Assembly: GCA_018824725.1 (NCBI GenBank)
Contig: JAHJGB010000022.1
Location: 1 to 34,111 of the forward strand
Direction of reading: 5' to 3'
From: Candidatus Omnitrophota bacterium
GTDB lineage: Bacteria; Omnitrophota; Gorgyraeia; Gorgyraeales; Gorgyraeaceae
DNA: 34,111 nt
Numbering within the stretch: the stretch's first letter is position 1; each line of letters starts with the position of its first letter. The notes beneath the pieces are model-generated. The model was not told the origin of the DNA. It saw only the letters and a list, made by a program, of their open reading frames with translations, and searched no databases. This document shows, piece after piece, positions 384 through 23,812 of the stretch. The position numbers were made by a program, and so were the translations under genes.

Positions 384-848
384 TTACTGCACCTTTCCTA
401 TCGCCATCAGGGTGAACACCATTGTAAAAATAGCGACTGTTTCAATAATACCGAGGACCATAAGATAGTTTCCGAAGCCTTTACCTGTCTCCCCCATTGC
501 GTCGCTTGCTGAGGCAGCTGCTTTTCCCTGATACCACGCTGAAAAACCTATTGCAACGCCTGCCAGCATACCCAAAGCGCTTAATATTCCCAGATTCTGC
601 ACTTTTTTACTCGCCTCTATCAAGGCATTCATCACTATCATTCCATATATAGTCTGCGTGAGCGGAGCTCCCACAAACGCCAGAAATATAAATGGCGCCG
701 GTTTATTCTGGGCAAAACACTTTTTCCATGCCCCTATAGCTGCCATGCCTGCCACGCCTGTGCCTGCTGCAGAACCAACTGCTGAAAAAGCAAGCGCTGC
801 GCCTGCTATCCCAATATCCTTAAACTGAACTACTGCATTTGCATCCAT
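384..848 (-). CDS. V-type ATPase subunit K (proteolipid, four-helix, Na+-type ligand set)
   Basis: Two hairpins: ...APLTQTIYG... and ...YQGKAAA.../...IIETVAIF.... The ORF track starts at TTG 860; ATG at 848 preceded by GGGAGGA is the better start. Confidence 0.92.
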   Translation of the reverse strand: MDANAVVQFKDIGIAGAALAFSAVGSAAGTGVAGMAAIGAWKKCFAQNKPAPFIFLAFVGAPLTQTIYGMIVMNALIEASKKVQNLGILSALGMLAGVAIGFSAWYQGKAAASASDAMGETGKGFGNYLMVLGIIETVAIFTMVFTLMAIGKVQ

Positions 849-927: not shown

Positions 928-2667
928 TTATTTAACGCTTTTAAAAGGCGAATATTTAACGCCTGACCATTCCATATCCAGATGGCTTGAAAATTCAAGG
1001 ACGTTCAGCCTTACCCCGTGAACCAATATCGCCAGTATACCCATTACAAGATTCAGCGTATGGCCTGCGAAAAGCACAAACACGCTCAATAAAACGTTTA
1101 AAACACTGCCTGCTCCTATGCTGCCTGCTATTTGGTTAAACGCATCCGCTATTGTCACTGCTGCAAGCCCTACTGCAAATAACCTTATATAAGACACTAT
1201 ATCCGCAAAGCTATTTACAACTTTCAATAAAAAATCCCCCAAACCGGTTCCGATGCCGACAAAAATATTTTTTACCGGATTTGTAAATAAAATAACAAGC
1301 GCTGAACCAATTATAAAAATCCATTTTCCAAAACCCGGAAATTCAAAACTTAATATCAGTGTCTTTGCCAGAAAATACACCGACCATAAAATACATATCC
1401 AGCCCACGTCGCTCAGCGCCTTTAAAGAAGGTATTTTCTTTAAAAATTTCCAGATATGCGCTATGCTCAACTGTATAGCCCCTATCAGGAAACAAAACGC
1501 CTGCACGTTTGTGATATCAGCGAAATAAGGCGCTATGGGTTTCAGCCACGCGTGCGACCCGAAAAACACACCTGTCATAAGTCCCCAGATAATAGCGCAG
1601 CTGCTCAAGACATAGGTTAAAAAGAATATAGACTTATCCTTTAACTGTTTGAATTTTCTCTGCATCGCGAGGCCCGCGATAAAATACACCAAGCCATAGC
1701 CTGCGTCGCCTATGAGCATTCCGAAAAATATTGAAAAAAATATCAGAAAATGCGGGCTTATATCTATCTCCCTGTATCCGGGTATGGTATTTATGATATT
1801 GAACATCGGCTCTATTATCCTGACCCATTTTGGATTTCTTATTAATGTCGGAGGCGCTTCGTTTTCATCCGGATCGCTTACCAGGATTGCCCATTTTTCT
1901 TTTAAGGCGGCCTTATCGATAACGCCAGCCTTATCTATAGGGCAATAGCCTTTTATATAGGAAAGTTTTTCAAACCTGCCGGCTCCTTCGGCTATTTCAT
2001 TAAATTCTATCGCTGAATTTAAATATTTTTCGTACTGCCCCAGCGCATTTTTATATACAGCCGTCTCCAAAAACCTTTTTTCTATTTCCTTTATCCTGAA
2101 TCCATGTCTTTTCTCTTCAGCGATCATCTGTTTGAGGCTCATTTCAGGCAATGCAAGAGTTTCAAAAGGCAGTGTAATTTCTTTTTCTGAAATCGCAGCG
2201 CAATAAATAATATTCTTTTTTCTAAACAGCTCTTCCAGGATAACGCCCTCAGGGATATTTTTCTTTTCCCGGAGCGTAATTTTGCACAGCTTTACCCAGA
2301 CCCTGCTATCCGACATTTGTTCAATGATTTCCGGGTCAAAATCACCCCAGTCTTCCCACATCATTATTTCGTGTTTTATTCTGTGAAGTTTTTCTATCAG
2401 AGTTTCTTTTTCATCCATCAAATCCAGAATTCTAGCTACGATATCCCCCTCACCTCCATTCAAAAATCTCTGATTTTCTATATCTGGTAGAATCGCCATA
2501 GCTTTTATTGCGCGGAGCCTGTCTTCTTTCATCTTTGCTATATTTTCGCCTAGCGGCAGGTTCTCATGCTCCACGTGCAAAAGCCCGAGATTCCTTAAGG
2601 ATTCAAGCGTGACGCCCATATCCTTTGACTGCGTCACCAGAATTATCTTTTTCATTTTAACTATCAT
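928..2667 (-). CDS. V-type ATPase subunit I
   Basis: 579 aa with N-terminal coiled coil and C-terminal multi-TM; IVSYIRLFAVGLAAVTIADAFN motif; operon context. Confidence 0.92.
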   Translation of the reverse strand: MIVKMKKIILVTQSKDMGVTLESLRNLGLLHVEHENLPLGENIAKMKEDRLRAIKAMAILPDIENQRFLNGGEGDIVARILDLMDEKETLIEKLHRIKHEIMMWEDWGDFDPEIIEQMSDSRVWVKLCKITLREKKNIPEGVILEELFRKKNIIYCAAISEKEITLPFETLALPEMSLKQMIAEEKRHGFRIKEIEKRFLETAVYKNALGQYEKYLNSAIEFNEIAEGAGRFEKLSYIKGYCPIDKAGVIDKAALKEKWAILVSDPDENEAPPTLIRNPKWVRIIEPMFNIINTIPGYREIDISPHFLIFFSIFFGMLIGDAGYGLVYFIAGLAMQRKFKQLKDKSIFFLTYVLSSCAIIWGLMTGVFFGSHAWLKPIAPYFADITNVQAFCFLIGAIQLSIAHIWKFLKKIPSLKALSDVGWICILWSVYFLAKTLILSFEFPGFGKWIFIIGSALVILFTNPVKNIFVGIGTGLGDFLLKVVNSFADIVSYIRLFAVGLAAVTIADAFNQIAGSIGAGSVLNVLLSVFVLFAGHTLNLVMGILAILVHGVRLNVLEFSSHLDMEWSGVKYSPFKSVK

Positions 2668-3281
2668 GCCAGAACTGCCTCCAAGCTCATCCTTTCGATC
2701 TTCTTCTTCGCTATCTTGGATCTGCCCACTGCGCTTGCCTGCTGGTCGCCCAGGTAAATCCTTATGCGCCTTATGTTTTCAACGCACTCCGGGATCTTTA
2801 CTTTTTCAAAAAGGTTTACCCTCTGGTTTGTTATCCTGAGCTCCTTAGTCAATGTTTCCAGCTGTTTATTCAATACCTTTTTCTCCTCCAGAAGCCCTAT
2901 AAATTTCCTTAACGCTATAATAGCCGTATCCACCCATAGAGGCGTTAGAAATAAATCATATTCCGCTTCTTCAAAATCAACTCTTTCGAATACCGGAATA
3001 TCCACGCCCGCGATATTAAGGCCGGATGTAACAATATTTTTCGGCTTTATCCAATTTGCCACATAATCGCCCGGCTCTTCCAGAAGGCCTGCCCATTCGC
3101 TTATATCATTTTCTAGATTATCCAGCTCTTCTATCTTCTGATTTAACCTCTGACGAGCACGCTGTATCTCAAGCTGCATCTGCTGTTTCTTTAATTGCAA
3201 TATGGGCAGATAACGCTCAAATCTTTTTAATGCGTCACGCTGTTTTTTTAATTCGCCTTTTGTGAATTTAATCTTCGCCAA
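2664..3281 (-). CDS. V-type ATPase subunit D
   Basis: 205 aa coiled coil, FTKGELKKQRDALKRFERYLPILQLKKQQMQ; position after A-B. Confidence 0.9.
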   Translation of the reverse strand: MAKIKFTKGELKKQRDALKRFERYLPILQLKKQQMQLEIQRARQRLNQKIEELDNLENDISEWAGLLEEPGDYVANWIKPKNIVTSGLNIAGVDIPVFERVDFEEAEYDLFLTPLWVDTAIIALRKFIGLLEEKKVLNKQLETLTKELRITNQRVNLFEKVKIPECVENIRRIRIYLGDQQASAVGRSKIAKKKIERMSLEAVLA

Positions 3282-3369: not shown

Positions 3370-4677
3370 CTACGCAATGGAGGAGGTTTTCGGCCAGAAT
3401 TCTTTTACAAGCTCTGTCTTGATGCCTGTCTCAGCCGGTTCGAAGTTTTCAGCCAGGATCTGCCATCCAAGGTCAAGGGCCTTTTCAAGAGGTATATCCA
3501 CAGAAAGGTTCATCATTTTTTCTTCGAACGCCTTTCCGTATTTAAGGAGTTTTTTGTCCCATTCGCTCATATGAAAACCCATTGCCTGTTTTTCAAGGGC
3601 CTCTCTGTAATCGCTGAATAATTGAATCATCCTGTCCATGATAGTCCGGTGATCTTTCCTGGTTTTTCCGTTCACGAGCTGCTTTAAGCGGCTGAGTGAC
3701 CCGAAAGGCTCTATGAATTTATTCCTGAGATAAAACTGGCCTTCTGTGATATAGCCTGTGTTGTCAGGCACAGGGTGCGTAACATCGTCTCCCGGCATCG
3801 TGGTAACAGCCAGGATTGTTATAGACCCTGCTGAATCAAAATCAACTGCCTTTTCGTAGCGGCTTGCGAGCTGGCTGTATAAATCTCCCGGATATCCTCT
3901 ATTGGAAGGGATATGTTCCATGGTAATAGAGATCTCTTTCAAAGCATCGCAGAAATTCGTCATGTCTGTCAATAGCACGAGCACTCTTTTACCTTGTAAA
4001 GCAAACTGCTCTGCCACTGCGAGGCTCAAATCAGGCACCAAAAGGCACTCTACGGTCGGGTCCTGCGCGGTATGAACAAAAAATATGGCCCTGGATAATG
4101 ACCCGTTTTTCTCAAGTGTATCTCTGAAGAAAAGATAATCGTCGTATTTAAGGCCCATGCCGCCGAGGATTATCAGGTCAATCTCTGCCTGCATTGCAAT
4201 GCGCGCCAATAACTCATTATAAGGCTCTCCTGGCACTGAAAATATCGGAAGCTTCTGCGATTCTACTAAAGAATTGAATATATCTATCATCGGGATTCCG
4301 GTACGTATCATTTTCCTTGGGATAATCCTTTTGGCTGGATTTACCGAAGGCCCGCCTATCTCTATCATGTTTTCTTCCAGGGTTGGGCCGTTATCCCTTG
4401 GAAGGCCAGCGCCGTTAAATAAACGGCCTAAAAGATTTTCCGTAAAGGATACTTTCATCGGATGGCCCAAGAATCTCACCTTGTCCCCTGTTGAAATCCC
4501 GCGGCTTCCGCTAAAGACCTGAAGATAAACCTTTTCCCCGTCTATCCTTATCACCTGAGCCAGGGACTTACCTGCCCTGGAAGAGATTTCAGCCAGGTTG
4601 CCGTAGCCCACGTCCTTTGCCTCAACAGTGATGACATTTCCCGCTATCTGGATTATGCGATTATATGTTTTTTGCAT
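3370..4677 (-). CDS. V-type ATPase subunit B
   Basis: 435 aa; non-catalytic nucleotide-binding subunit motifs ([57 protein letters not shown]). Confidence 0.95.
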
Positions 4678-6386
4678 TTTTCTTTTATCAGGTTTTCTTG
4701 TTTTTTGAAATTTTCAGCCTGCCATTCGGATGAATTCCATTCGATAAACACCTGCCTTAATCCCTGGAAAAATTTCCTGGCGCTATCTTTATTTTCAAAA
4801 TTAAACTCTGAGCCTATAATTTCATGCAATACATGAAAAACGTATTTTTGCCTTTCCTCGATTGTAGCGGCATCCACCTCGTCAAACGCGTTCTGCTGCA
4901 GATATACATCGTCTATGAACTCGCCTTTAAGGTAAGCCATGAAGTCAGAGAGAGACGTGCCCTCTTCTCCCACCACCTTCATCATCTGTTTCGCTTCATA
5001 GCTTCTTTTTAAAACAGCCTGGGCCAGATTCACCTCTTTTGAGTCTATAAAACTGGTATATTTACTCCAGCTTTCAAGGGGATCTATTGCAGGGTATCTT
5101 CTGGCATCAGACCTTTCCCGCGAAAGCCCGTGAAACGCCCCTACCACTTTTAACGTAGCCTGTGTAACAGGCTCTTCAAAATTTCCTCCTGCAGGGCTCA
5201 CTGTGCCGCCTATTGTCACAGACCCGAAACTTCCGTCGTGCAGCCTCACCAACCCTGCCCTTTCATAAAATGATGCGATCCTGTTTTCAAGATACGCCGG
5301 GAATGCCTCTTCTCCCGGGATTTCTTCCAGCCTTCCTGACATCTCGCGCATTGCCTGCGCCCACCTGGAAGTGGAATCAGCCAATAAGAGCACATTCAAG
5401 CCCATCTGGCGGTAATACTCAGCGATTGTAACAGCTGTATAAACGCTTGATTCTCTCGCGCTAACAGGCATAGAACTCGTGTTGCAAATGATAACTGTGC
5501 GTTCTATCAGGCTCTTCTTTGTTCTGGGATCTACAAGATGCGGAAATTCCCTTAGCGTCTCGACAACCTCTCCTGCCCTTTCTCCGCACGCTGCTATAAT
5601 CACGATATCTATTTCCGCATGCTTACTGATAAGCTGCTGCAGGACAGTTTTGCCTGAACCAAAAGGCCCTGGCACACAGTAAGTTCCTCCGAGCGCCACA
5701 GGTATCAATGTATCTATGATCCTTATCTTGGTTATAACAGGTTTTGAGGGTTTTAATTTTTCAGCAAAACTCGCGATAGGCACTTTCACTGGCCAGGTTT
5801 GAGACATAGCGACAAGACAGGTGTTTCCGCGCTCATCTTTTAATTCCGCCACCGTATGTTTTATATTATATTTACCCTTATTTGCTATTTTTACCACTGT
5901 GGCTGCGCCTTTTAAACCAAACGGCGCCATTATCCAGTGTTCAAAAATACCTTCATTTGTAAAACCTATCTTCTCGCCCGGTTTTACGCCCTGCCCGACC
6001 TTGGCAACAGGCGTAAATTCCCATTCCAATTTATCGTCCAAGGCTTCCAGATATAAACCTCTTTTTAAGAAAAATCCTGATTTTTCTGCCAGTTTCGGCA
6101 ATGGATTCTGCAGGCCGTCGAATATCTGGCCCAATAGCCCTGGCCCGAGCTCCACCGATAGAAGCTCCCCCGTAAATTCCACTTTTTCTCCAAGCCTCAG
6201 GCCTTTTGTATCTTCGTAAATCTGGAGCTCTGCGATATTGCCTGTGACGCGTATTACCTCTGATTTAAGCCGCTCTTCATTATGCAATATAAACGCCACC
6301 TCATTCTGCATGACATAGTCTTTAAATTCAACTCTTGCCATGTTGCCGTTTATGCCGGTCAGTATCCCAAATCTTTCTGCGCTCAT
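4653..6386 (-). CDS. V-type ATPase catalytic subunit A
   Basis: 577 aa; Walker [43 protein letters not shown]. Confidence 0.97.
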
Positions 6387-6937
6387 ATCTTTTCCGTCAA
6401 TCCTTCCAGAACCTTTAAGCCGTCTAGTGAATGAATCCTGTGCCAGCGCTCCAATATCTTAAGCTGAAGTCCATATGCCGCAAGATATTCCATGTCAAAG
6501 TAATGGCCCTCTTTAATCTCTTCTATCTTTTCCCATCTAACTCTATCCAGGTATAATTCCGCTTCCATGGGAGAATCCTGACTAACTGCCCAGTGCGTCA
6601 AAGGCGCAATAAAAGGATCTGCCCCGTTATCCCCGCGTAAATATTTATTCGGGTCTTTGCCTTTTTTAACAGCCCTTGTCCTTACTAACTCGTTTGCAAG
6701 GCTCTTATTGAACCTCTTCCACTCCTTTAATAAAGCGCTATGGGAGCCCGACTCCTTATAGGAGTCGGGCTCCCATAGCGCTGAAGGCTCTATTGATAAA
6801 TTTACCAGAATATCCATATCATCCTGATTTAACTCAGGACTGCACGCCTCAAGAAAATCAGGATAAGAAAGCGGCGGCTTCATCCCAAAATGAAGCATAG
6901 GCAGGCTTGCAATTATATAATAATAAGAATTTTTCAT
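6383..6937 (-). CDS. DUF2764 family V-type ATPase-associated protein
   Basis: 184 aa; MKNSYYYIIASLPMLHFGMKPPLSYPDFLEAC and AVKKGKDPNKYLRGD; sits between E and A as in Chlamydia/spirochaete/Bacteroidetes-type V-ATPase operons. Confidence 0.8.
   Translation of the reverse strand: MKNSYYYIIASLPMLHFGMKPPLSYPDFLEACSPELNQDDMDILVNLSIEPSALWEPDSYKESGSHSALLKEWKRFNKSLANELVRTRAVKKGKDPNKYLRGDNGADPFIAPLTHWAVSQDSPMEAELYLDRVRWEKIEEIKEGHYFDMEYLAAYGLQLKILERWHRIHSLDGLKVLEGLTEKI
6734..6782. repeat. Perfect 22-bp inverted repeat (5-nt loop) inside the DUF2764 coding sequence
   Basis: AGCGCTATGGGAGCCCGACTCC-TTATA-GGAGTCGGGCTCCCATAGCGCT; encodes residues 52-68 (SALWEPDSYKESGSHSA). Confidence 0.95.
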
Positions 6938-7536
6938 TTTATCATCTTTGCCAGTTCAGGGTTAAGATAGACGCACAATGTCTCCAATAATCCTTCGTCG
7001 CTAAAATCAAAATACGATTTACCTTTATCAAAGCTTATAGAAAAACCCGCGTTTATATTCTGCGACGGCCTGAATTCCACTCCAGCGCTGATCTTATCTT
7101 TTAATTTGGAAATAACCATGTTTTTTATTTTTTCCAGGTCAACTTTATTTACCAATATTTTTATATCGTCTGTTTTGCCGTTTTTATCGGCGCATTTTTC
7201 TATTAAATTTGCTAATATGTCTGCTATCTCTTCGCTGGACATGGATTTTGCTATCTCGATGGACATGATCTTATTCAGCGTCTTTCTTATATCTTCTTTC
7301 AGGCCGAGTAAAAGGTCTCTTGAAGCCTGTTTTACGCTGAGATTGGCGCTTACCCTGGTTTTCTCAGTCTCGAGCCTTGCCTTCTGGACAATTTCATCGG
7401 CTAGTTTCTTGGCATCTACCAGGATTTTTTCAGCGTCTTTTTTAGCCTTGCCTTCTATCAGCATGGCCTTTTCCTCCCCAGACTTTATTCCTTCCTGATT
7501 TATTTTTTCAAGAAGCCCTTTTAAGTTTTCTGACAT
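6934..7536 (-). CDS. V-type ATPase subunit E (operon 1)
   Basis: 200 aa; N-terminal coiled coil (EKAMLIEGKAKKDAEKILVDAKKLADEIVQKARLETEKTR), first gene of the operon. Confidence 0.82.
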   Translation of the reverse strand: MSENLKGLLEKINQEGIKSGEEKAMLIEGKAKKDAEKILVDAKKLADEIVQKARLETEKTRVSANLSVKQASRDLLLGLKEDIRKTLNKIMSIEIAKSMSSEEIADILANLIEKCADKNGKTDDIKILVNKVDLEKIKNMVISKLKDKISAGVEFRPSQNINAGFSISFDKGKSYFDFSDEGLLETLCVYLNPELAKMIK

Positions 7537-7657: not shown

Positions 7658-8146
7658 TTACTGCAATTCATTATATAACCTTTCTACTTCTGACCTGCCT
7701 AAAATAGGGTTCTTTACCACTACCACTGGGCACGTAGATTCTCTGAAGATCCTTTCGCCCTCGCTGTAAAGCGCCTCCTGCCAGGACAAAACCTCTTTCA
7801 AATCGCCCATGACAAGTAAATCTGCCCCAAGCTCTTTTGCCTTATCGACTACTTCGCTGTGAATTTCTCCTTTTAAAATCAAGGTTTCGCATTCCACTTT
7901 TTTATTTTCCGCGAGCGCCTTTACCCTCTGCATAAAAAGTTTCGATTGCTGATCCATATCTATTTCGTATTCTTTTGCCTCTATTTCTACAAATACGCGG
8001 CTCTTTAATAGCTCCTGTATGGCTTTTTCGTCTATAACACAAATAGCTATAAGCTTTACCTGTAAAAGTTTCGCAAGATAGATAGCGTATTTAGCCGTAA
8101 TGATAGAAGGTGCTCCACCAGCAAGCGCCACAACTATGCTTTTCAT
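7658..8146 (-). CDS. Universal stress protein (UspA family)
   Basis: 162 aa; [13 protein letters not shown]...ADLLVMGDLK...FRESTCPVVVVKNP. Confidence 0.88.
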   Translation of the reverse strand: MKSIVVALAGGAPSIITAKYAIYLAKLLQVKLIAICVIDEKAIQELLKSRVFVEIEAKEYEIDMDQQSKLFMQRVKALAENKKVECETLILKGEIHSEVVDKAKELGADLLVMGDLKEVLSWQEALYSEGERIFRESTCPVVVVKNPILGRSEVERLYNELQ

Positions 8147-8760
8147 CCCCTTATCCTTTCCTTTATAAGCTTTAGCATTGAAAACGCTTCTCTTGAATCT
8201 TCGTCAAGCCTGTCAGTTATATATTTTACGCTGTCTTCATAAAAAGGCAGGTATATCTTTTCAAGGGCGTTTACCTTTCTTATTGTCTTCTGGACCTCTT
8301 TGGCAATCCTTATAAGAGCAATTTTCTTCTCCGCAAGCTGCGTTATCAATTTAAGGGCGTCTTTGAACTTTATTGAAACCTCATCTACATAAAAACTTAC
8401 TTCGCGCGGGCTATAGTATGGCGGATTTTCTTTTATATGTATATCTATTATAGGTAAGCCTACCCCCATAATCCTTTTTTCGGAAATAGTAAGACGCGTT
8501 TTTATATCTATCGAAAACCCCAGCTCCTCCAGTCTCTTTCTGCCCATTATAACTAGTGCCTTATCTACAAGACCGTACGCCTCTTGCATAGCAATGTCTA
8601 CTTTACGCTGAAATCCGTCAACAATATGAACAACAGAATTTAACTCATTTACAAGAATCCTTCTTTTCTCGTCCAGTAGCGCATGGCCTTCCTGTGTAAG
8701 AAATAACAGCTTCTTGGACTTTAAAAGATTGGTTTTTGTGGCTGCAATGTTTATCTTCAC
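8143..8760 (-). CDS. V-type ATPase subunit D (operon 2)
   Basis: 205 aa; [34 protein letters not shown] is typical subunit D N-terminus. Confidence 0.95.
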
Positions 8761-10139
8761 GATTTTTTCTTATAGTGTTTCTTCAGGTCTTCTTCGCGTA
8801 TCCTGACCAGTTCTTCTGCAGGAAGCAACGATATGACATCCCACCCCAGGTCCAGGCCTTCTTCAAGGGTCCTTCTTTCTGTATATCCCTGGCTCAGGAA
8901 TTTTTTCTCAAAGTCTTCTCCGAATTTCAGATACAGTTTATCAAGCGCTGAAAGCTCTTCTTCTCCTATGATCGATGCCAGCGCTCTTGCATCTTTTACA
9001 TGGGCATAACACGCGAATAACTGCGAGGCCAGAGACGGATGATCATCCCTGGTGAGGCCCTTGCCTATATTATCTTTCATAAGCCTTGAGAGCGACGGGA
9101 GTCCTGCTATAGGAGGGTATATCCCTCTATTGTACATTTCTCTTTCAAGCACAATCTGGCCTTCAGTAATATAACCTGTAAGGTCAGGAATCGGATGGGT
9201 AATATCATCATTAGGCATTGTGAGAATCGGAAGCTGGGTTATAGAGCCTTTGATGCCTTTTATCATTCCCGCCCTTTCGTATATGCTGGCAAGATCGCTA
9301 TAAAGATATCCCGGGTAGCCTTTTCTAGCAGGAATCTCTCCCCTTATTGTAGAAACTTCTCTGAGCGCTTCGCAATAGTTTGACATGTCTGTCATGATCA
9401 CAAGGACGTGCATATTTTTCTTAAACGCCAGATATTCCGCGCAGCTAAGAGCGATCCTGGGAGTCAGCAGTCTTTCTATTGACGGGCTGTCAGCCAGGCT
9501 CAGGAATATCGCGACCCTTTCAAGAACCCCTGATTCTTCAAAACTCTTCTGGAAAAATCTCGCTGTATCATATTTAACGCCCATAGCCACAAAGATTACG
9601 CAGAAATTCTCGCCTTTAACCTGCGACTGCCTTGCGATCTGGGTCCCTATCAGGTCATGCGGCAGCCCGCTTCCTGAAAATATCGGAAGTTTCTGTCCTC
9701 TGACAAGTGTATTCATCACATCTATTGAAGAAATCCCTGTCTCAATAATATTTTCCGGGTAATCCCTTGATACAGGATTTATGGCAAGGCCGTTTACGTT
9801 AATCATCTCATCGTAAACAGGCCTCGGCATGCCGTCCAGAGGATTGCCCAGGCCGTCAAAAACCCTTCCGAGCACCTCTTCAGAAACCCCCATCATAAGA
9901 GGTTTTTCTTTAAATTTTACCTTGCAGTTTTTTATAGCCAGCCCGCTTGTGCCGCCAAGTACCTCTACTACTGCAAAACCTTTTCCCACCTCGAGCGTTA
10001 CCCCGACCCTGGATTTACCGTCTTCATCCGTTATTTCCACAATCTCGTTATACCCGACATTGTGGATGTTGCGTATGATAAAAATAGGGCCTGTTATTTC
10101 TTCTAGCCCAACATATTCTCTCAGGTTATATTCTCTCAT
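8757..10139 (-). CDS. V-type ATPase subunit B (operon 2)
   Basis: 460 aa; [55 protein letters not shown]. Confidence 0.97.
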
Positions 10140-11903
10140 CTAAAACTCCAGTTCTGCGAGCGAACGTTCTACTTCAGAAGGAAGCCCTTCCAATTTATCC
10201 ATGTCTTCTTTTGACTCTGAATATTTAAACCTCATCCTAGTAAGTTCCTGGTAAATAGGGTTTTCTTTTATCTCGCTTACATTAATGCCTTTTTTGATAA
10301 GCTCGTCGCTTTTTTCGTAAAACTTAATTATGGCTTTCAACATCAGGAACTGCTTGCGGCTCGAGGAGTACGTATCAATATCATCAAAAGCGCTCTGCTG
10401 TAAAAATGTATTTTTAAAAATGCTGCATGTTTCAAGTATCAACCTCTGGCGGTGCGGCAATACATCAGGCCCTACAAGTTTCACAACCTGCAGGAGCCTT
10501 TGTTCTTTCTGCAAAAGTTCCATTATGGCGTATCTGGCGGACAGCCAATCCTTATCCACATTTTTATGCCACCAGTCTTTCACGTCATCTATGTATTCAG
10601 AATAACTGTCTATCCAGCTTATGGACGGATAATGCCTTGCGTTAGCGAGGTCTCTGTCCAGCGCCCAGAAACATCTGATAAATCTTTTTGTGTGGGACGT
10701 AACAGGCTCTGAAAAATCTCCGCCGGGCGGAGAAACAGAGGCAATGATTGTGATGGAGCCGTTATCGTTATTAAGGGTTTTGATGCGCCCTGCCCTTTCG
10801 TAAAATTCCGCAAGCCTTGAAGGAAGGTACGCCGGGAATCCTTCTTCCAGCGGCATTTCTTCCAGCCTGCCCGAAAGCTCTCTTAATGCCTCTGCCCATC
10901 TTGAAGTGGAATCTGCCATAAGCGCCACATTGTATCCCATATCGCGGTAATACTCAGCCAGAGTAACGCCTGTATAGATGCTGGCCTCTCGGGCCGCGAC
11001 AGGCATATTGGAAGTATTCGCGATGAAAATCGTCCTTTCCATAATAGGCCTTTTAGTGGCAGGGTCTATGAGCTTCGGGAAATTAAGGAGGATGTCTGTC
11101 ATCTCGTTTCCTCTTTCACCGCATCCGACATATATCACTATATCCGCGTTGCTCCACTTGGCAATCTGATGTTGTATTACGGTCTTACCTGTGCCAAATC
11201 CTCCGGGCACAACAACGCATCCTCCTTTACCTACAGGGAATAACGTATCAATAACCCTCTGGCCCGTGATAAGAGGTTCTGTTATCGGAATCCTTTCTTT
11301 GCAAGGCCTAGGACGTCTGACAGGCCATTTTTGATACATTAAAACTTCTTTTTCAGAATCTTTTTCCGCCAATATCGCGATTTTTTCGTCTAAAGAATAT
11401 TCGCCATCTTTAGCTATCCATTTGATTTTGCCGTGAGCGTCCGGAGGCACCAGAATCCTGTGTTTTATTAAGGCTGTTTCCTGGACCTCTCCTATGATTT
11501 CGCCTCCTTTTATATAATCGCTTTCTTTTTTCAAAGGCGCGAAATGCCATTTCTTCTTCCTGTCCAGGGCTGTTACATGCACGCCTCTATTGATATAAAA
11601 TCCTTCTTTTTCTCTTAGCACCTCAAGGGGTCTCTGAATGCCGTCGTAAATATTTCCTAAAAGCCCGGGGCCCAGTTCAACATAAAGCGGAAATCCTTGG
11701 GTATAGATAAGGTCCCCTGCTTTTAGCGAAGTGGTGTCTTCGTAGACCTGGATATATGCCTTATCCTCTTTTAACCTTACGACCTCTCCTATAAGATGCT
11801 CTTCGCCCACTTCCACCATGTCCAGCATCCTTAAAAAAGATACCTCTTCCGCTTCAACAACAGGCCCCATTATTCTGAATACCTTGCCGCAAGCCTTTAG
11901 CAT
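10140..11903 (-). CDS. V-type ATPase catalytic subunit A (operon 2)
   Basis: 587 aa; Walker [43 protein letters not shown]. Confidence 0.97.
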   Translation of the reverse strand: MLKACGKVFRIMGPVVEAEEVSFLRMLDMVEVGEEHLIGEVVRLKEDKAYIQVYEDTTSLKAGDLIYTQGFPLYVELGPGLLGNIYDGIQRPLEVLREKEGFYINRGVHVTALDRKKKWHFAPLKKESDYIKGGEIIGEVQETALIKHRILVPPDAHGKIKWIAKDGEYSLDEKIAILAEKDSEKEVLMYQKWPVRRPRPCKERIPITEPLITGQRVIDTLFPVGKGGCVVVPGGFGTGKTVIQHQIAKWSNADIVIYVGCGERGNEMTDILLNFPKLIDPATKRPIMERTIFIANTSNMPVAAREASIYTGVTLAEYYRDMGYNVALMADSTSRWAEALRELSGRLEEMPLEEGFPAYLPSRLAEFYERAGRIKTLNNDNGSITIIASVSPPGGDFSEPVTSHTKRFIRCFWALDRDLANARHYPSISWIDSYSEYIDDVKDWWHKNVDKDWLSARYAIMELLQKEQRLLQVVKLVGPDVLPHRQRLILETCSIFKNTFLQQSAFDDIDTYSSSRKQFLMLKAIIKFYEKSDELIKKGINVSEIKENPIYQELTRMRFKYSESKEDMDKLEGLPSEVERSLAELEF

Positions 11904-12506
11904 CTAGAATACTCCCTTCAGTAAATCCATGTATATATCTTCATGCATCCTCTTGAACCTGGCAGAAAATGTATTGTCAAAAATAAGCCTTGAATCATTT
12001 GACTGCACAATAATTCCCATATCTTTGAAATCGCTTTTTTTAAATCTGGCTTTGGCTATGTTTATATCTTTTATTATTTTTTCATCCAGAGCCGAATATA
12101 AGACTTCTACCTCTTCCTCTGCCACAACCTTGCTACCTTCCAGAATTGCTTTTTCCAGAAACTCTTTATAGCCCGGGTCTTTTCTAAATTCCATTGCCAG
12201 AAGCTTGACCTTTTCAAGTATGCTTTCTATGAACCTGCTTTTTTCTTCCAGGAAAAGTTTTTTCTTTTCCAGGTTTAGGGTAGAAAAGATTTTTTGTTTC
12301 ATCTTTTCTATTTCAATCTCGCTTTTTTTCAGGATCTCTTTCTTCCTGAATTCAGCCTCTTGATTGGCTTCTTCAAGAATCCTAGAACTTTCTTTTTTGG
12401 CGGAGACGAGCAGAGAATCTGCCTGAGAAGAGGCGTCTTCTATTATTCTCCTAGTGATCTCTTCCGCGTCTTCTATCCTTACCTTTGAATAAAGGGATTT
12501 ATCCAT
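11904..12506 (-). CDS. V-type ATPase subunit E (operon 2)
   Basis: Coiled-coil stalk protein; ATG at 12506 overlaps the subunit F stop (TAATG), a better start than the ORF-track 12539. Confidence 0.85.
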   Translation of the reverse strand: MDKSLYSKVRIEDAEEITRRIIEDASSQADSLLVSAKKESSRILEEANQEAEFRKKEILKKSEIEIEKMKQKIFSTLNLEKKKLFLEEKSRFIESILEKVKLLAMEFRKDPGYKEFLEKAILEGSKVVAEEEVEVLYSALDEKIIKDINIAKARFKKSDFKDMGIIVQSNDSRLIFDNTFSARFKRMHEDIYMDLLKGVF

Positions 12507-12814
12507 TAGGCGCTCACCCCTATTATGTCCTTCAGACAATCTCCCACGCTCCGCCTTTTTGCAGCTTCTCCTCTTGATGGCAGCTCTAGTATAAGAGGCT
12601 TTTGATTCTTGTACATCAGATTATTCAGTTCTGCCCTCAAAAAAGAAGCTGCTTTTTCAGTCACCAGTAAAACCCCTGCGTCCTCTGTGGCCAAGGCCAC
12701 CTTCAAAGCCTCCAGGGCGTCTGATCTAGTGGATACCTCTCTGGTTTCTACGCCTGCAAGCCTGAAACCCAGGCTTGATTCTTTATCAGCGATACAAAAG
12801 AAAGTCATTGCCAT
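12506..12814 (-). CDS. V-type ATPase subunit F
   Basis: 102 aa; FFCIADKESSLGFRLAGVETREV, GVLLVTEKAA, PLILELPS. Confidence 0.9.
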   Translation of the reverse strand: MAMTFFCIADKESSLGFRLAGVETREVSTRSDALEALKVALATEDAGVLLVTEKAASFLRAELNNLMYKNQKPLILELPSRGEAAKRRSVGDCLKDIIGVSA

Positions 12815-12964: not shown

Positions 12965-13291
12965 TTATATCTTCCCCAATATCATTATCGCTATAATAAG
13001 CCCGTATATCGCGATACCTTCAGCAAGGCCTACGTATATAAGCGCTTTGCCTGCCATCTCGGGTTTCTCGCTTATCGCGCCCACAGCTGCTGCCCCGACA
13101 TGAGCCACTGCTATACCTGCCGCAATCGCGCTGAGGCCTGTCGCTATAGAGGCGGCTAAAAATGCCCATCCTACTATTGCAGGATCGGTTGTAGTCTGCG
13201 CCCACGCTGAATCGCAAAAAGAGATAAACAGAAAAATAATGCTGAACTTCACTATGTTCCATGACCACTTAATAATGCGCTTCATATGCAT
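12965..13291 (-). CDS. V-type ATPase subunit K (two-helix form with signal-like N-terminus)
   Basis: 108 aa; N-terminal hydrophobic segment ending SAWAQ, then GIAVAHVGAAAVGAISEKPEMAGKALIYVGLAEGIAIYGLIIAIMI. Confidence 0.92.
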   Translation of the reverse strand: MHMKRIIKWSWNIVKFSIIFLFISFCDSAWAQTTTDPAIVGWAFLAASIATGLSAIAAGIAVAHVGAAAVGAISEKPEMAGKALIYVGLAEGIAIYGLIIAIMILGKI

Positions 13292-13301
13292 TTCTCCTTT
13301 C

Positions 13302-15203
13302 TTATATCTTGACCGGTTTATAAGTTTCCCTGCCTAATATGAAAAATTTTGAGAAGAACTCATAATAATTAAGCCTCAAAGATTGTATGCTCACCACAAG
13401 CCCCTCTAGAAAAATTATAAGTATATTTCCCAAAATAACAACTAAAAAAGATAAAAACGCTCCGCCTGCTTCATTTACTATGCGCGACATCTCAAATATG
13501 GCAATAAATAATCCTGCGTGCGCAAGCGCAAACGCGGCTATGCGTATAAAGGATACTGTGTTCGCCAGATAGCTCATTCCTATTTCCAGTATATCTATGG
13601 CGCTCTCCATAAGAGCTGTGAAAATATTATGCCTCTCTTTTTTAAAAACAGCCTCTATAAAAGGTTTCAAAAAAAGCAGCGCGAACCCGGCTGATATTAT
13701 AATAAAATAAACATTCAATCCCTGGGTTTTTGACATGAGTATCTTGGTAAAAATCCCTATGGCTGACCAGTAAATAAGGCCTCCTATAAGGCCTGCTTTA
13801 TCAAAGAGCGCCTTCAGGTAATCTTTATCCCTCAGGCTGTTTATTATATTTATCAATATTCCCAGGCTTATACAACCCATGCCGAATATAATACTAACCT
13901 TGAAAATTTCCAGGATATTGTCTATGGGCTTTATCCATAAAGAACGAAACCCTATTCCGAAAAAACTGCCGTAAAGAACCCCGAATATGATTGAGCTTAT
14001 CCCGCAATAGAGCATAAGAGCAAATGCCTGCCTGACTTTTTCATTCTTGCTAATTTTTAAGAACAGGCTGCCGATGGCAAGCGCAAGCCCGTGCCCTATG
14101 TCCCCGAACATGGCGCCGAACATTATCAGAAAACTTATTGCCACGAATATTGTAGGGTCTATTGTGCCGTAACGCGGTATGCCGTATGAATCTATCAGTA
14201 ATTCAAATGGCTTGAAAAACGCGGTATTTTTGAGTTTCACGGGTATCTCATCTTTTGGTATATTTACCTCTCTTGCGTCTTTTGTTTCAATATAACATCC
14301 TGCATCTATCTTTTTGATCTCTTTTATGGCGTTTTCTTTTTCTTCCTTCGGGACCCAGCCCGATAGAAGCACGGTCTTATCTGTCATGCACGAATATTTT
14401 TTTGCCTCTAATAAAGATTTCTTAAGCCCGACCAATGACTGCGCCCCGGATAAATCTACCTGATAGGTTTCTCCTATTCTTTTTATCCCGTCCTTTACGT
14501 CCTGCATCTTCTTTTTTATAGCCTCTATCTCTTCTGATATTTTCCCTTCAACATCCTTTGAAATATTTTCAGCCTGTTTCGGGTATTCCACCTTTTCCCA
14601 TGATATATCTTTTAAAACCCTGTCTATGAACACCCTGTCCCGCCTGAGGCCTATAAACAAAGCTGTAATCCTGTCGCCGTCTTTTTTAAAAGGATATAAT
14701 ACGTACGGGATATCCTTTAAGCTTTTTTCCAGGACTAAAATATTTTTCTCAACCACCTTCCCCAGCGTTACCTCTAAAAAACTATAAACTGATTCTCTTT
14801 TTAAAGAAAATAAAGGGTAGGATTTCAGCTGGGTAAAGATTGATTTTTTTGTCTCTAGCTCCGAATCCAGTTCCTCTTTCTGGGAAAGGAAAGGGGCAAG
14901 GCTATGGTCTACCTTTGTAAGCATATTTTTAATTTCGTCGTAAGAAAATGCCTTTATGTCTTTGGATGGCGCAAAAGAGATGCCCAGCCTCCTTAAATCA
15001 TCCCTCAGCCTGACATCCAGCTCGTCCCATTGGGCATATTCCTTGTCTATCTCATAAGGCGACAGGTCTTTTAATTCGTCTTCTATATGCCTGATATCAA
15101 CAGGGTGGAATATGCCCAGCTTTAAAAGATAGTATGTTATGTCCTCTATCTTTTCTTTCAGGACCACTATATTCAATAATTCCATACTCGAGGAGGTCAG
15201 CAT
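13302..15203 (-). CDS. V-type ATPase subunit I (operon 2)
   Basis: 633 aa; coiled-coil N-terminus and multi-TM C-terminus with NTVSFIRIAAFALAHAGLFIAIFEM. Confidence 0.94.
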   Translation of the reverse strand: MLTSSSMELLNIVVLKEKIEDITYYLLKLGIFHPVDIRHIEDELKDLSPYEIDKEYAQWDELDVRLRDDLRRLGISFAPSKDIKAFSYDEIKNMLTKVDHSLAPFLSQKEELDSELETKKSIFTQLKSYPLFSLKRESVYSFLEVTLGKVVEKNILVLEKSLKDIPYVLYPFKKDGDRITALFIGLRRDRVFIDRVLKDISWEKVEYPKQAENISKDVEGKISEEIEAIKKKMQDVKDGIKRIGETYQVDLSGAQSLVGLKKSLLEAKKYSCMTDKTVLLSGWVPKEEKENAIKEIKKIDAGCYIETKDAREVNIPKDEIPVKLKNTAFFKPFELLIDSYGIPRYGTIDPTIFVAISFLIMFGAMFGDIGHGLALAIGSLFLKISKNEKVRQAFALMLYCGISSIIFGVLYGSFFGIGFRSLWIKPIDNILEIFKVSIIFGMGCISLGILINIINSLRDKDYLKALFDKAGLIGGLIYWSAIGIFTKILMSKTQGLNVYFIIISAGFALLFLKPFIEAVFKKERHNIFTALMESAIDILEIGMSYLANTVSFIRIAAFALAHAGLFIAIFEMSRIVNEAGGAFLSFLVVILGNILIIFLEGLVVSIQSLRLNYYEFFSKFFILGRETYKPVKI

Positions 15204-16243
15204 ATATTTAACAGGGCGCTGGTTTCATCTTTTTTCCAGCCAAGTTTTTTTGCGTATAAAAGAGAGACTATATTTTTCGTCTCGTTCCTTTTTAATACGA
15301 TATAACCCAGGATAACAGCCACTGTAAAAGGATATCCCGAAAGCGCTCTTTTGATTTCTTTCAGCAAAATCTCGTGCAAAAAATTTTCTATTAATGATAT
15401 ATTTTCTTCTATCATGTCTTTTATCCTGGCGTATGGGCCGAGGGCAACGCTATCCACCATCTTTGTAAGCCCGTCAGTTGTATAAAAACTTATTATATTT
15501 TCTTTATCGATCCTCGCGCCGCCCGGAATTACCCATTCCAGGATATCGCCCGCTGCCAGGCCGTAATACTTCCTCATCCGGATAAGCCAGTTTATATTTT
15601 CCGTGTCTATTTCTATGCCTATGACCCTTTTGGCTATCTCCTGGTCACGGCCGGACAAGAGTTCCACGCAGGAAAGAAGCCTCTGGTAATAATCCATATC
15701 CAGGCCGGCTTCCAGGTAAAACGCAGAGCCTTTTTCTTTGAATTTTCCCCTGGCGCTTAAAACAGGTTTTCTGTATGGCGTATCATCCAGAAGAAGTATT
15801 ATCTCCTCTATATTCGGTGCATATATTATTTTTTTGTAGCCTATGTCAAAACTTATCTTCTCCCCTAAAATAAATTCATCCACATTAACAGGGGCCTTTT
15901 TATTCCATATCCTCAATGCCACCTTTAACTGCTCCAGCTCATATTTTTCTATAAAAAGGCCCATGAGGCCTTTTTCTGTTTTGCCGGGTATGGATTTGTA
16001 TATTTTCCTGTAAATATCCAGATCATTTTTTATAAATTGTTTTTCAATGACCCGCAGATCTGTTATTTCTTTAGGAATGTTTTCTATCGCGCCCTTATGA
16101 TAAGGCGATTCCTTCAGTATCTCCAGGGCCTTATAAAAATCCTCTGCCTCCAGCATCCTGGAAAATAAAGCAGGGCTTACCAGAAATGACATCATAGCCC
16201 TTATTTTAGCGTTGATAAAAGAATATGTGGCAAGTTCGCGCAT
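15197..16243 (-). CDS. V-type ATPase subunit C (operon 2)
   Basis: 348 aa; YSFINAKIRAMMSFLVS, INWLIRMRKYYGL; position G/H-C-I-K. Confidence 0.88.
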   Translation of the reverse strand: MRELATYSFINAKIRAMMSFLVSPALFSRMLEAEDFYKALEILKESPYHKGAIENIPKEITDLRVIEKQFIKNDLDIYRKIYKSIPGKTEKGLMGLFIEKYELEQLKVALRIWNKKAPVNVDEFILGEKISFDIGYKKIIYAPNIEEIILLLDDTPYRKPVLSARGKFKEKGSAFYLEAGLDMDYYQRLLSCVELLSGRDQEIAKRVIGIEIDTENINWLIRMRKYYGLAAGDILEWVIPGGARIDKENIISFYTTDGLTKMVDSVALGPYARIKDMIEENISLIENFLHEILLKEIKRALSGYPFTVAVILGYIVLKRNETKNIVSLLYAKKLGWKKDETSALLNIC

Positions 16244-16245
16244 AC

Positions 16246-16563
16246 CTAGTCTTTGATGGCTATTATTTGATAGAAAACTTTTTTAGAAATCTCGGATATA
16301 TCTTTGTCTTTCTTCTCTCTTATGGCAAGTATTTCTTTCCTTGCCTCCTGAAGGACCTTTTCTTTTTCTGACATGAACCTTTTTTCAGAAGCCTCTTTCT
16401 GCTTATGGCTGGAATCATCTGCCTCAGCTATTGCCCGGGTTACGATATTTTCTTTTTCTTTCTTGACCTCTCTGGCAATTCGCTCGGATTCTTCCTTTGC
16501 GCCCTGAAGGATCTTCGAGGCGCGCTTTTCTTCCTTGAGAATCTTTTCAACGACGTCTTTCAT
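16246..16563 (-). CDS. V-type ATPase subunit G/H-like coiled coil
   Basis: 105 aa charged coiled coil at the 5' end of the ATPase operon. Confidence 0.75.
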   Translation of the reverse strand: MKDVVEKILKEEKRASKILQGAKEESERIAREVKKEKENIVTRAIAEADDSSHKQKEASEKRFMSEKEKVLQEARKEILAIREKKDKDISEISKKVFYQIIAIKD

Positions 16564-16566
16564 GAT

Positions 16567-17133
16567 TTAACGGCTCCCTGGTTTTCTTATCTCTATCCCC
16601 TTTTTGCATAAAGGGCATTCTTCAGGCTTATAGGTGGGAAAATCCAGCTTGACCAGACTTTTTAATTTTACACCAAAATCTAATTCTTTTCCACTTCTAT
16701 CTACTATACAGCCTACACCTATGATTTTGGCGCCTGTTGACTTTACTGCCTCCAAAACCTCGCCTGTGGAGAGCCCTGTGGTTATAACATCTTCAACCAC
16801 CAGGACCCTGTCTTCTTTTTTTATCTCAAATCCCCGTCTTAAGACCATCTTGCCTTCCACCCGCTCTGTGAACAAAGACTTTACCCCGAGAGCCCTTGCG
16901 GTTTCGTAAGAAACTATCACCCCGCCCAAGGCAGGTGCCACCACGCACGTAGGCTTATCATCTTTAAAATACCCGGCTAATTGTTTGCACATCTTCTCCG
17001 CTATATCCGGGTTCTGCAATAAAAGCGCGCACTGAAAATAATTCCTGCTATGCAACCCGCTCGAAAGCCTGAAATGCCCGCTTAAAAGCGCTTCGGTCTG
17101 CCTAAATAGTTTTAAAATTTCCTGTTCTTTCAT
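16567..17133 (-). CDS. pyrE: Orotate phosphoribosyltransferase
   Basis: PRTase motif VLVVEDVITTGLSTGEVLEAV; in the pyr cluster. Confidence 0.93.
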   Translation of the reverse strand: MKEQEILKLFRQTEALLSGHFRLSSGLHSRNYFQCALLLQNPDIAEKMCKQLAGYFKDDKPTCVVAPALGGVIVSYETARALGVKSLFTERVEGKMVLRRGFEIKKEDRVLVVEDVITTGLSTGEVLEAVKSTGAKIIGVGCIVDRSGKELDFGVKLKSLVKLDFPTYKPEECPLCKKGIEIRKPGSR

Positions 17134-23682: not shown

Positions 23683-23720
23683 AAAATAAAAAAGGGCTTT
23701 AACCATTTCTGATTAAGCCC
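23683..23720 (-). terminator. Intrinsic terminator in the pyrR leader (attenuator)
   Basis: Minus strand GGGCTTAATCAGAAATGGTTAAAGCCCTTTTTTATTTT. Confidence 0.88.
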
Positions 23721-23760
23721 ATTATATACCAAAATTACAAACTCCGCTATATTCACTTTT

Positions 23761-23793
23761 AGCTCCCTTTTCAGCCTCTCTGTGCTGATTTAA
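23761..23793 (-). promoter_or_regulatory. PyrR-binding hairpin of the pyr attenuator
   Basis: Minus strand TCAGC-ACAGAGAG-GCTGA within CCTTT...AAAGG; contains the conserved CAGAGAGGCT loop motif. Confidence 0.85.
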
Positions 23794-23812
23794 AGGTATC
23801 TGTTAATATTAA

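Follow-up and report, generated by a model that had tools for sequence, protein, structure and literature searches.

The stretch of DNA analysed here (hereafter the window; 34,111 nucleotides) comes from a metagenome assembly of 1.66 Mb that is 93% complete, and it contains two complete, different V/A-type rotary ATPase operons lying head to tail. On the minus strand, to which all coordinates below refer unless otherwise stated, the order of transcription is pyrF, pyrE, operon 2, operon 1 and the end of the contig. Operon 1 has the gene order E-DUF2764-A-B-D-I-K. It comprises subunit E (6934–7536; NF002424, under its cut-off), the DUF2764 protein of the short V-ATPase operon (6383–6937; PF10962), catalytic subunit A with the P-loop GPFGSGKT (4653–6386; NF003220), subunit B (3370–4677; assigned from its sequence and from conserved synteny), subunit D (2664–3281; Pfam PF01813), the stator a-like subunit I (928–2667; Pfam PF01496), with arginine residues in SYIRLFAVGLA and HGVRLNVLEF, and the c-ring subunit K, hereafter K1, of the four-helix NtpK type with a full Na+ ligand set (384–848; NCBIfam NF005174, above cut-off). 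Two tRNA genes on the plus strand (169–243 and 303–376) converge on the 3′ end of this operon.

Operon 2 is read in the order G, C, I, K, F, E, A, B, D and universal stress protein. Its genes encode the peripheral stalk subunit G/H (16246–16563; a weak NF006256 match and its position), subunit C (15197–16243; TIGR02923, AhaC, under its cut-off), subunit I (13302–15203; a profile match and sequence), with arginine residues in SFIRIAAFALA and QSLRLNYYEF, the two-helix subunit K, hereafter K2, in which E91 is kept and the Na+ ligands are not (12965–13291; alignment to NtpK), subunit F (12506–12814; PF01990), subunit E (11904–12539; PF01991), an archaeal-type catalytic subunit A (10140–11903; NF003220 above cut-off, with TIGR01043 giving the best E-value under its own cut-off), subunits B (8757–10139) and D (8143–8760), both assigned from sequence and synteny, and the universal stress protein (7658–8146; PF00582 and synteny). 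Genes for subunits A, B, D, E, I and K are thus common to the two operons. Because the arginine residues of subunit I and the P-loops of subunit A, which we take to be the motifs expected of these families, are kept in both, both operons look functional. Elsewhere in the window, a match to the PyrR binding site (23686–23800) sits upstream of a pyrR-like gene that heads a pyrimidine cluster; at 48.5 bits against a cut-off of 54, it is below threshold.

The earlier note on this DNA had proposed, from an alignment made by eye, that K1 carries the Na+ ligands of Enterococcus hirae NtpK within the motifs APLTQTIYG, YQGKAAA and IIETVAI. All three motifs are present in the K1 reading frame, which encodes 154 amino acids from its ATG codon, or 158 from an upstream TTG at position 860, and whose closest named matches belong to Candidatus Omnitrophota. 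A single-sequence phmmer search of K1 against the PDB missed NtpK, but a profile built from 37 K1 homologues matched a single PDB sequence, and this was NtpK (2bl2, E=6.7e-4). In the profile alignment, PLTQTIYG of K1 falls on P62-G-T64-Q65-G-L-Y68-G69 of NtpK, QGK falls on Q110-G-K112, and IIETVA falls on M-V-E139-T. T64, Q65, Q107 and E136 of K1 therefore match the NtpK ligands T64, Q65, Q110 and E139, and Y68 is likewise matched. The alignment made by eye was right, although its proof came from the profile, the single-sequence search being insufficient. K1 also has, as had been stated, one membrane carboxylate per four helices, namely E136 in the last helix. In an AlphaFold2 model (mean pLDDT 87, pTM 0.80), the helices span residues 3–46, 54–80, 86–121 and 125–153, and when this model was compared with PDB structures using Foldseek, 2bl2 ranked first (E=5e-4, TM 0.68). 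P62, Q65, Y68 and E136 are invariant over 118 aligned K1-type sequences; position 64 is occupied by T in 84 of them and by S in 34, and the position of Q107 by Q in 113 and by K in 5. This conservation spans Omnitrophota, Spirochaetes and PVC bacteria, and the ligand residues of K1 are, to judge from the alignment, not there by chance.

K2 was expected to be a two-helix form devoid of the Na+ ligand set, and both expectations were borne out. The protein has 108 amino acids, with two helices after a signal-like N-terminal segment. When K2 is aligned to hairpin 2 of NtpK, V62 takes the place of Q110 and E91 that of E139; when it is aligned to hairpin 1, G92 and I93 take the places of T64 and Q65, and Y96 matches Y68. 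With G, I and V at the positions of T64, Q65 and Q110, three of the four side-chain Na+ ligands are missing and the carboxylate E91 alone is retained. Residues V62, E91, G92, I93 and Y96 are invariant in the K2 alignment (n=7, Omnitrophota). A like loss is seen in the citrus c subunit, from a eukaryotic proton ring, which in the alignment has V, L and I at the same three positions. Among PDB entries, profile A3 also matches bacterial subunit K chains of the two-helix form (5gar and 6qum), which are presumably those of Thermus.

Which ions might these two rings carry? Mulkidjanian and colleagues described a common Na+ site of rotary ATPase rings and pointed out that in proton rings the position of Q65 is aliphatic and at least some of the ligands are absent. 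According to the rule used by ProAD (PMC11738941), a complete motif indicates Na+ and the absence of one residue indicates H+. When this published rule is applied to the ligand sets of K1 and K2, operon 1 is very probably of the Na+ type and operon 2 of the H+ type. The coexistence of a Na+ and an H+ rotary enzyme, which the earlier note had predicted, is thus supported as a prediction by the profile alignment, the fold search and the conservation of the residues. The word 'pump', which that note used for the Na+ enzyme, presupposes a direction, and either enzyme could synthesize ATP. We infer the ion identity of both operons; what is observed are the sequences and their alignments, the fold, the conservation of residues and the order of the genes. 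Operon 1 encodes a short-operon (DUF2764-type) V-ATPase, and we propose that each subunit of its ring holds Na+ by means of T64 and Q65 on helix 2, Q107 on helix 3 and E136 on helix 4, in the manner of E. hirae NtpK; one Na+ per four-helix subunit would then be carried as the ring turns past the arginine residues of subunit I. Operon 2 encodes an archaeal-type A-ATPase, and because its two-helix rotor retains the carboxylate E91 alone in an aliphatic pocket, the ion carried would be H+.

It might be argued that the ring of operon 1 is promiscuous and carries mainly H+ in the cell, either because its Na+ binding is too weak or because Na+ is scarce in the habitat, and that the ligands are an ancestral relic. 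Na+ enzymes can indeed move protons in the absence of Na+, as Mulkidjanian and colleagues described, and the names of several related metagenome-assembled genomes hint at freshwater or groundwater. A relic would be expected to decay, however, yet among the 118 sequences, which come from several phyla, Q65, the glutamate and Y68 are invariant and T or S is always found at position 64. The genome also has two other systems that speak against this reading, which we regard as unlikely. A complete Rnf operon is located on contig C138, its genes B, A, E, G, D and C having been named from their sequences, with profile backing for two members of the Rnf-Nqr family alone. A membrane pyrophosphatase has the motif GNTTAATGKG, with the alanine of K+-dependent enzymes, and in helix 6 the residues D-L-Y-E-S (D-x-x-E-S), the D6.50/E6.53/S6.54 pattern of the Thermotoga maritima Na+ site. 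Rnf in some species can use H+, and the helix-6 glutamate E6.53 is found in some H+-pyrophosphatases too; Rnf and this Na+-compatible pyrophosphatase therefore appear consistent with a Na+ circuit, and neither is proof of one. Operon 2 could, for its part, also bind Na+ through non-classical residues such as His64, which lies two residues past V62, at a position where aligned relatives have a polar His or Tyr. We consider this very improbable, as the position of His64 corresponds to K112 of NtpK, which is no ligand, and the Ile at the position of Q65 is the published aliphatic signature of H+ rings.

The preferred reading, a Na+-type operon 1 beside an H+-type operon 2, treats the two as separate enzymes. 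ORF and family-profile searches of the window recognised no gene for subunit C, F or G in operon 1, and all three lie next door in operon 2, so that a single mixed enzyme, in which operon 1 borrows these subunits from its neighbour, might be imagined. This idea was rejected, and we regard it as extremely unlikely, because the sister genomes L068 and L071 have operon 1 without operon 2 and with its gene order unchanged, and operon 1 also stands alone in several other phyla. Since two sister genomes lack operon 2 altogether, operon 1 does not depend on any subunit of its neighbour, C, F and G included. As a separate matter, the DUF2764 protein was considered as a possible shortened subunit C, which was not supported: when its profile was compared with one of 12 C subunits, E was 0.12 and the probability 0.5%, and one of 44 DUF2764 members matched Pfam AC39 (E=0.028). 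The AlphaFold2 model of the DUF2764 protein is confident (pLDDT 88), and a search of the PDB returned no fold match.

How might the two operons have come to adjoin? Of 191 Omnitrophota genomes, 77 gave a match to operon 1-type K, which was weak in two, and the gene order of operon 1 is common to Omnitrophota, Spirochaetes, PVC bacteria and others. Ten of the 191 genomes have a subunit C of the operon 2 type, with at least 31% identity in seven; six of these seven also have K1 (G000, G092, G112, G150, G162 and G181; not G124). Outside the clade of the window, the two operons are on different contigs (G112, G150, G162 and G181), and they touch only within this clade, where operon 2 directly precedes operon 1 in L067 (genome G092), L072, L073 and the window itself. 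In L165, also of G092, pyrF, pyrE, operon 2 and operon 1 are all legible in this order on one contig, and a universal stress protein gene likewise closes operon 2 in L160, L161, L163 and L164. In L068 and L071, pyrE is directly joined to operon 1, operon 2 is absent, and a whole-genome scan detected a single c-type subunit in each, with no second one. G168 and G016, two genomes of the same genus that agree with L068 and L071 in contig numbers and coordinates, likewise have no operon 2-type subunit C. In a tree of operon 1 proteins, L068 is placed beside the window (support 0.41), L071 is basal to the group, and L072 and L073 form an outer pair. The simplest reading of this pattern is one arrival of operon 2 followed by at least two losses, but with a weak node and assemblies that are incomplete, the history may have been a different one. 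There was no sign of a recent foreign origin of operon 2, its GC and GC3 values overlapping with those of operon 1. At a single fixed site, operon 2 occurs in some close relatives and is lacking in others, so that nature itself provides a comparison from which the contribution of a second, proton-type ATPase to a cell already equipped with a sodium-type enzyme might be read. We also considered that the adjacent pair might act as a matched set, with one enzyme using the first ion to make ATP and the other spending ATP on moving the second ion. We think that this is improbable; if it were true, the two together would exchange Na+ for H+ over the membrane by way of the ATP pool, and operon 2 would be a removable module.

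The operon of E. hirae contains the full set of genes, including those for C, F and G, whereas operon 1 is of the short DUF2764 type. Its rotor resembles NtpK (PDB 2BL2) in having four helices, one carboxylate and matched residues at T64, Q65, Q110, E139 and Y68, and differs from it in overall sequence (about 22% identity); the systems also differ in that no Rfam match to a Na+ riboswitch was obtained within the window upstream of operon 1. Operon 1 belongs to the short V-ATPase type of Spirochaetes, PVC bacteria and Bacteroides, and the spirochaete and PVC loci have an identical gene order. For the short V-ATPase of Bacteroides fragilis, which has DUF2764, the authors aligned subunit K to NtpK and found all of the Na+ residues present, identified the operon as a strong fitness factor in deoxycholate, and called the enzyme not functionally characterised (PMC10197588). 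Our literature search found no report of measured ion specificity for a DUF2764-type V-ATPase, and this, like the lack of a riboswitch match, counts against the Na+ assignment of operon 1. The partner enzyme in B. fragilis is an F-type H+ ATPase, whereas here it is an archaeal-type A-ATPase. Operon 2 shares the G-C-I-K-F-E-A-B-D set with the A-ATPases of Thermus and archaea, its subunit A has its best E-value to TIGR01043, and the K2 profile aligns with the subunit K chains attributed to Thermus; it differs in closing with a universal stress protein gene and in its patchy occurrence in Omnitrophota. In the ProAD catalogue, two A-type ATPases per genome are recorded for 222 bacterial genera, and Na+ and H+ types are mixed in 1,137 of 1,388 multi-ATPase bacterial genera; adjacency of two operons, the feature found here, is not treated in the available part of that work (PMC11738941). 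In view of the B. fragilis analysis and these counts, neither the Na+ ligand set nor the coexistence of Na+ and H+ types is new. The local additions are that the operons adjoin in this clade only and that two sister genomes lack operon 2; with this pair, the known sharing of one genome by Na+ and H+ rotary ATPases gains an example from Omnitrophota.

A third rotary complex is encoded in the genome by an F-type cluster on contig C176, in the order of a very long secreted-looking protein, epsilon, c, b/delta, alpha, gamma, beta and type IV pilus genes. A 'symbiotic' type 2/3 F-ATPase, typically beside type 4a pilus genes, has been described in Omnitrophota (PMC10066038). In the c subunit of this cluster (C176 of G000, 16393–16608; also L197, L003 and L004), Gln replaces the ion-binding carboxylate. 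The c sequence was matched in 103 of 191 Omnitrophota genomes, although the weakest matches may be ordinary F-type c subunits, and in an alignment of 31 rows, which includes the query twice, Glu occupies the position in 13 and Q, A, V, T or F in the remainder. The gene was not found in the same-genus genomes G016, G092 and G168, so that transfer or mis-binning of C176 is possible.

Further variation on the operon 1 type was observed elsewhere. A second, tandem K gene is present in L115, L118, L121, L126 (around 9860–10935) and L129 (2425–3431), which are loci of the Lentisphaerae/Kiritimatiellia/Verrucomicrobia type. In each pair, the Na+ set of the first K is complete; the second retains T, Q65, Y and E, with Lys at the position of Gln110, and these second genes are the five K cases among the 118 sequences. 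Such tandem genes suggest a mixed ring, some of whose sites would contain a cation of their own. Finally, in L141 and L100, which come from metagenome-assembled genomes of Methanoregula and Methanolinea, a bacterial-type operon 1 lies near an archaeal A-ATPase operon on one contig, and close relatives of K1, with 57–64% identity, occur in 13 of 150 genomes of the archaeal order to which these genera belong.
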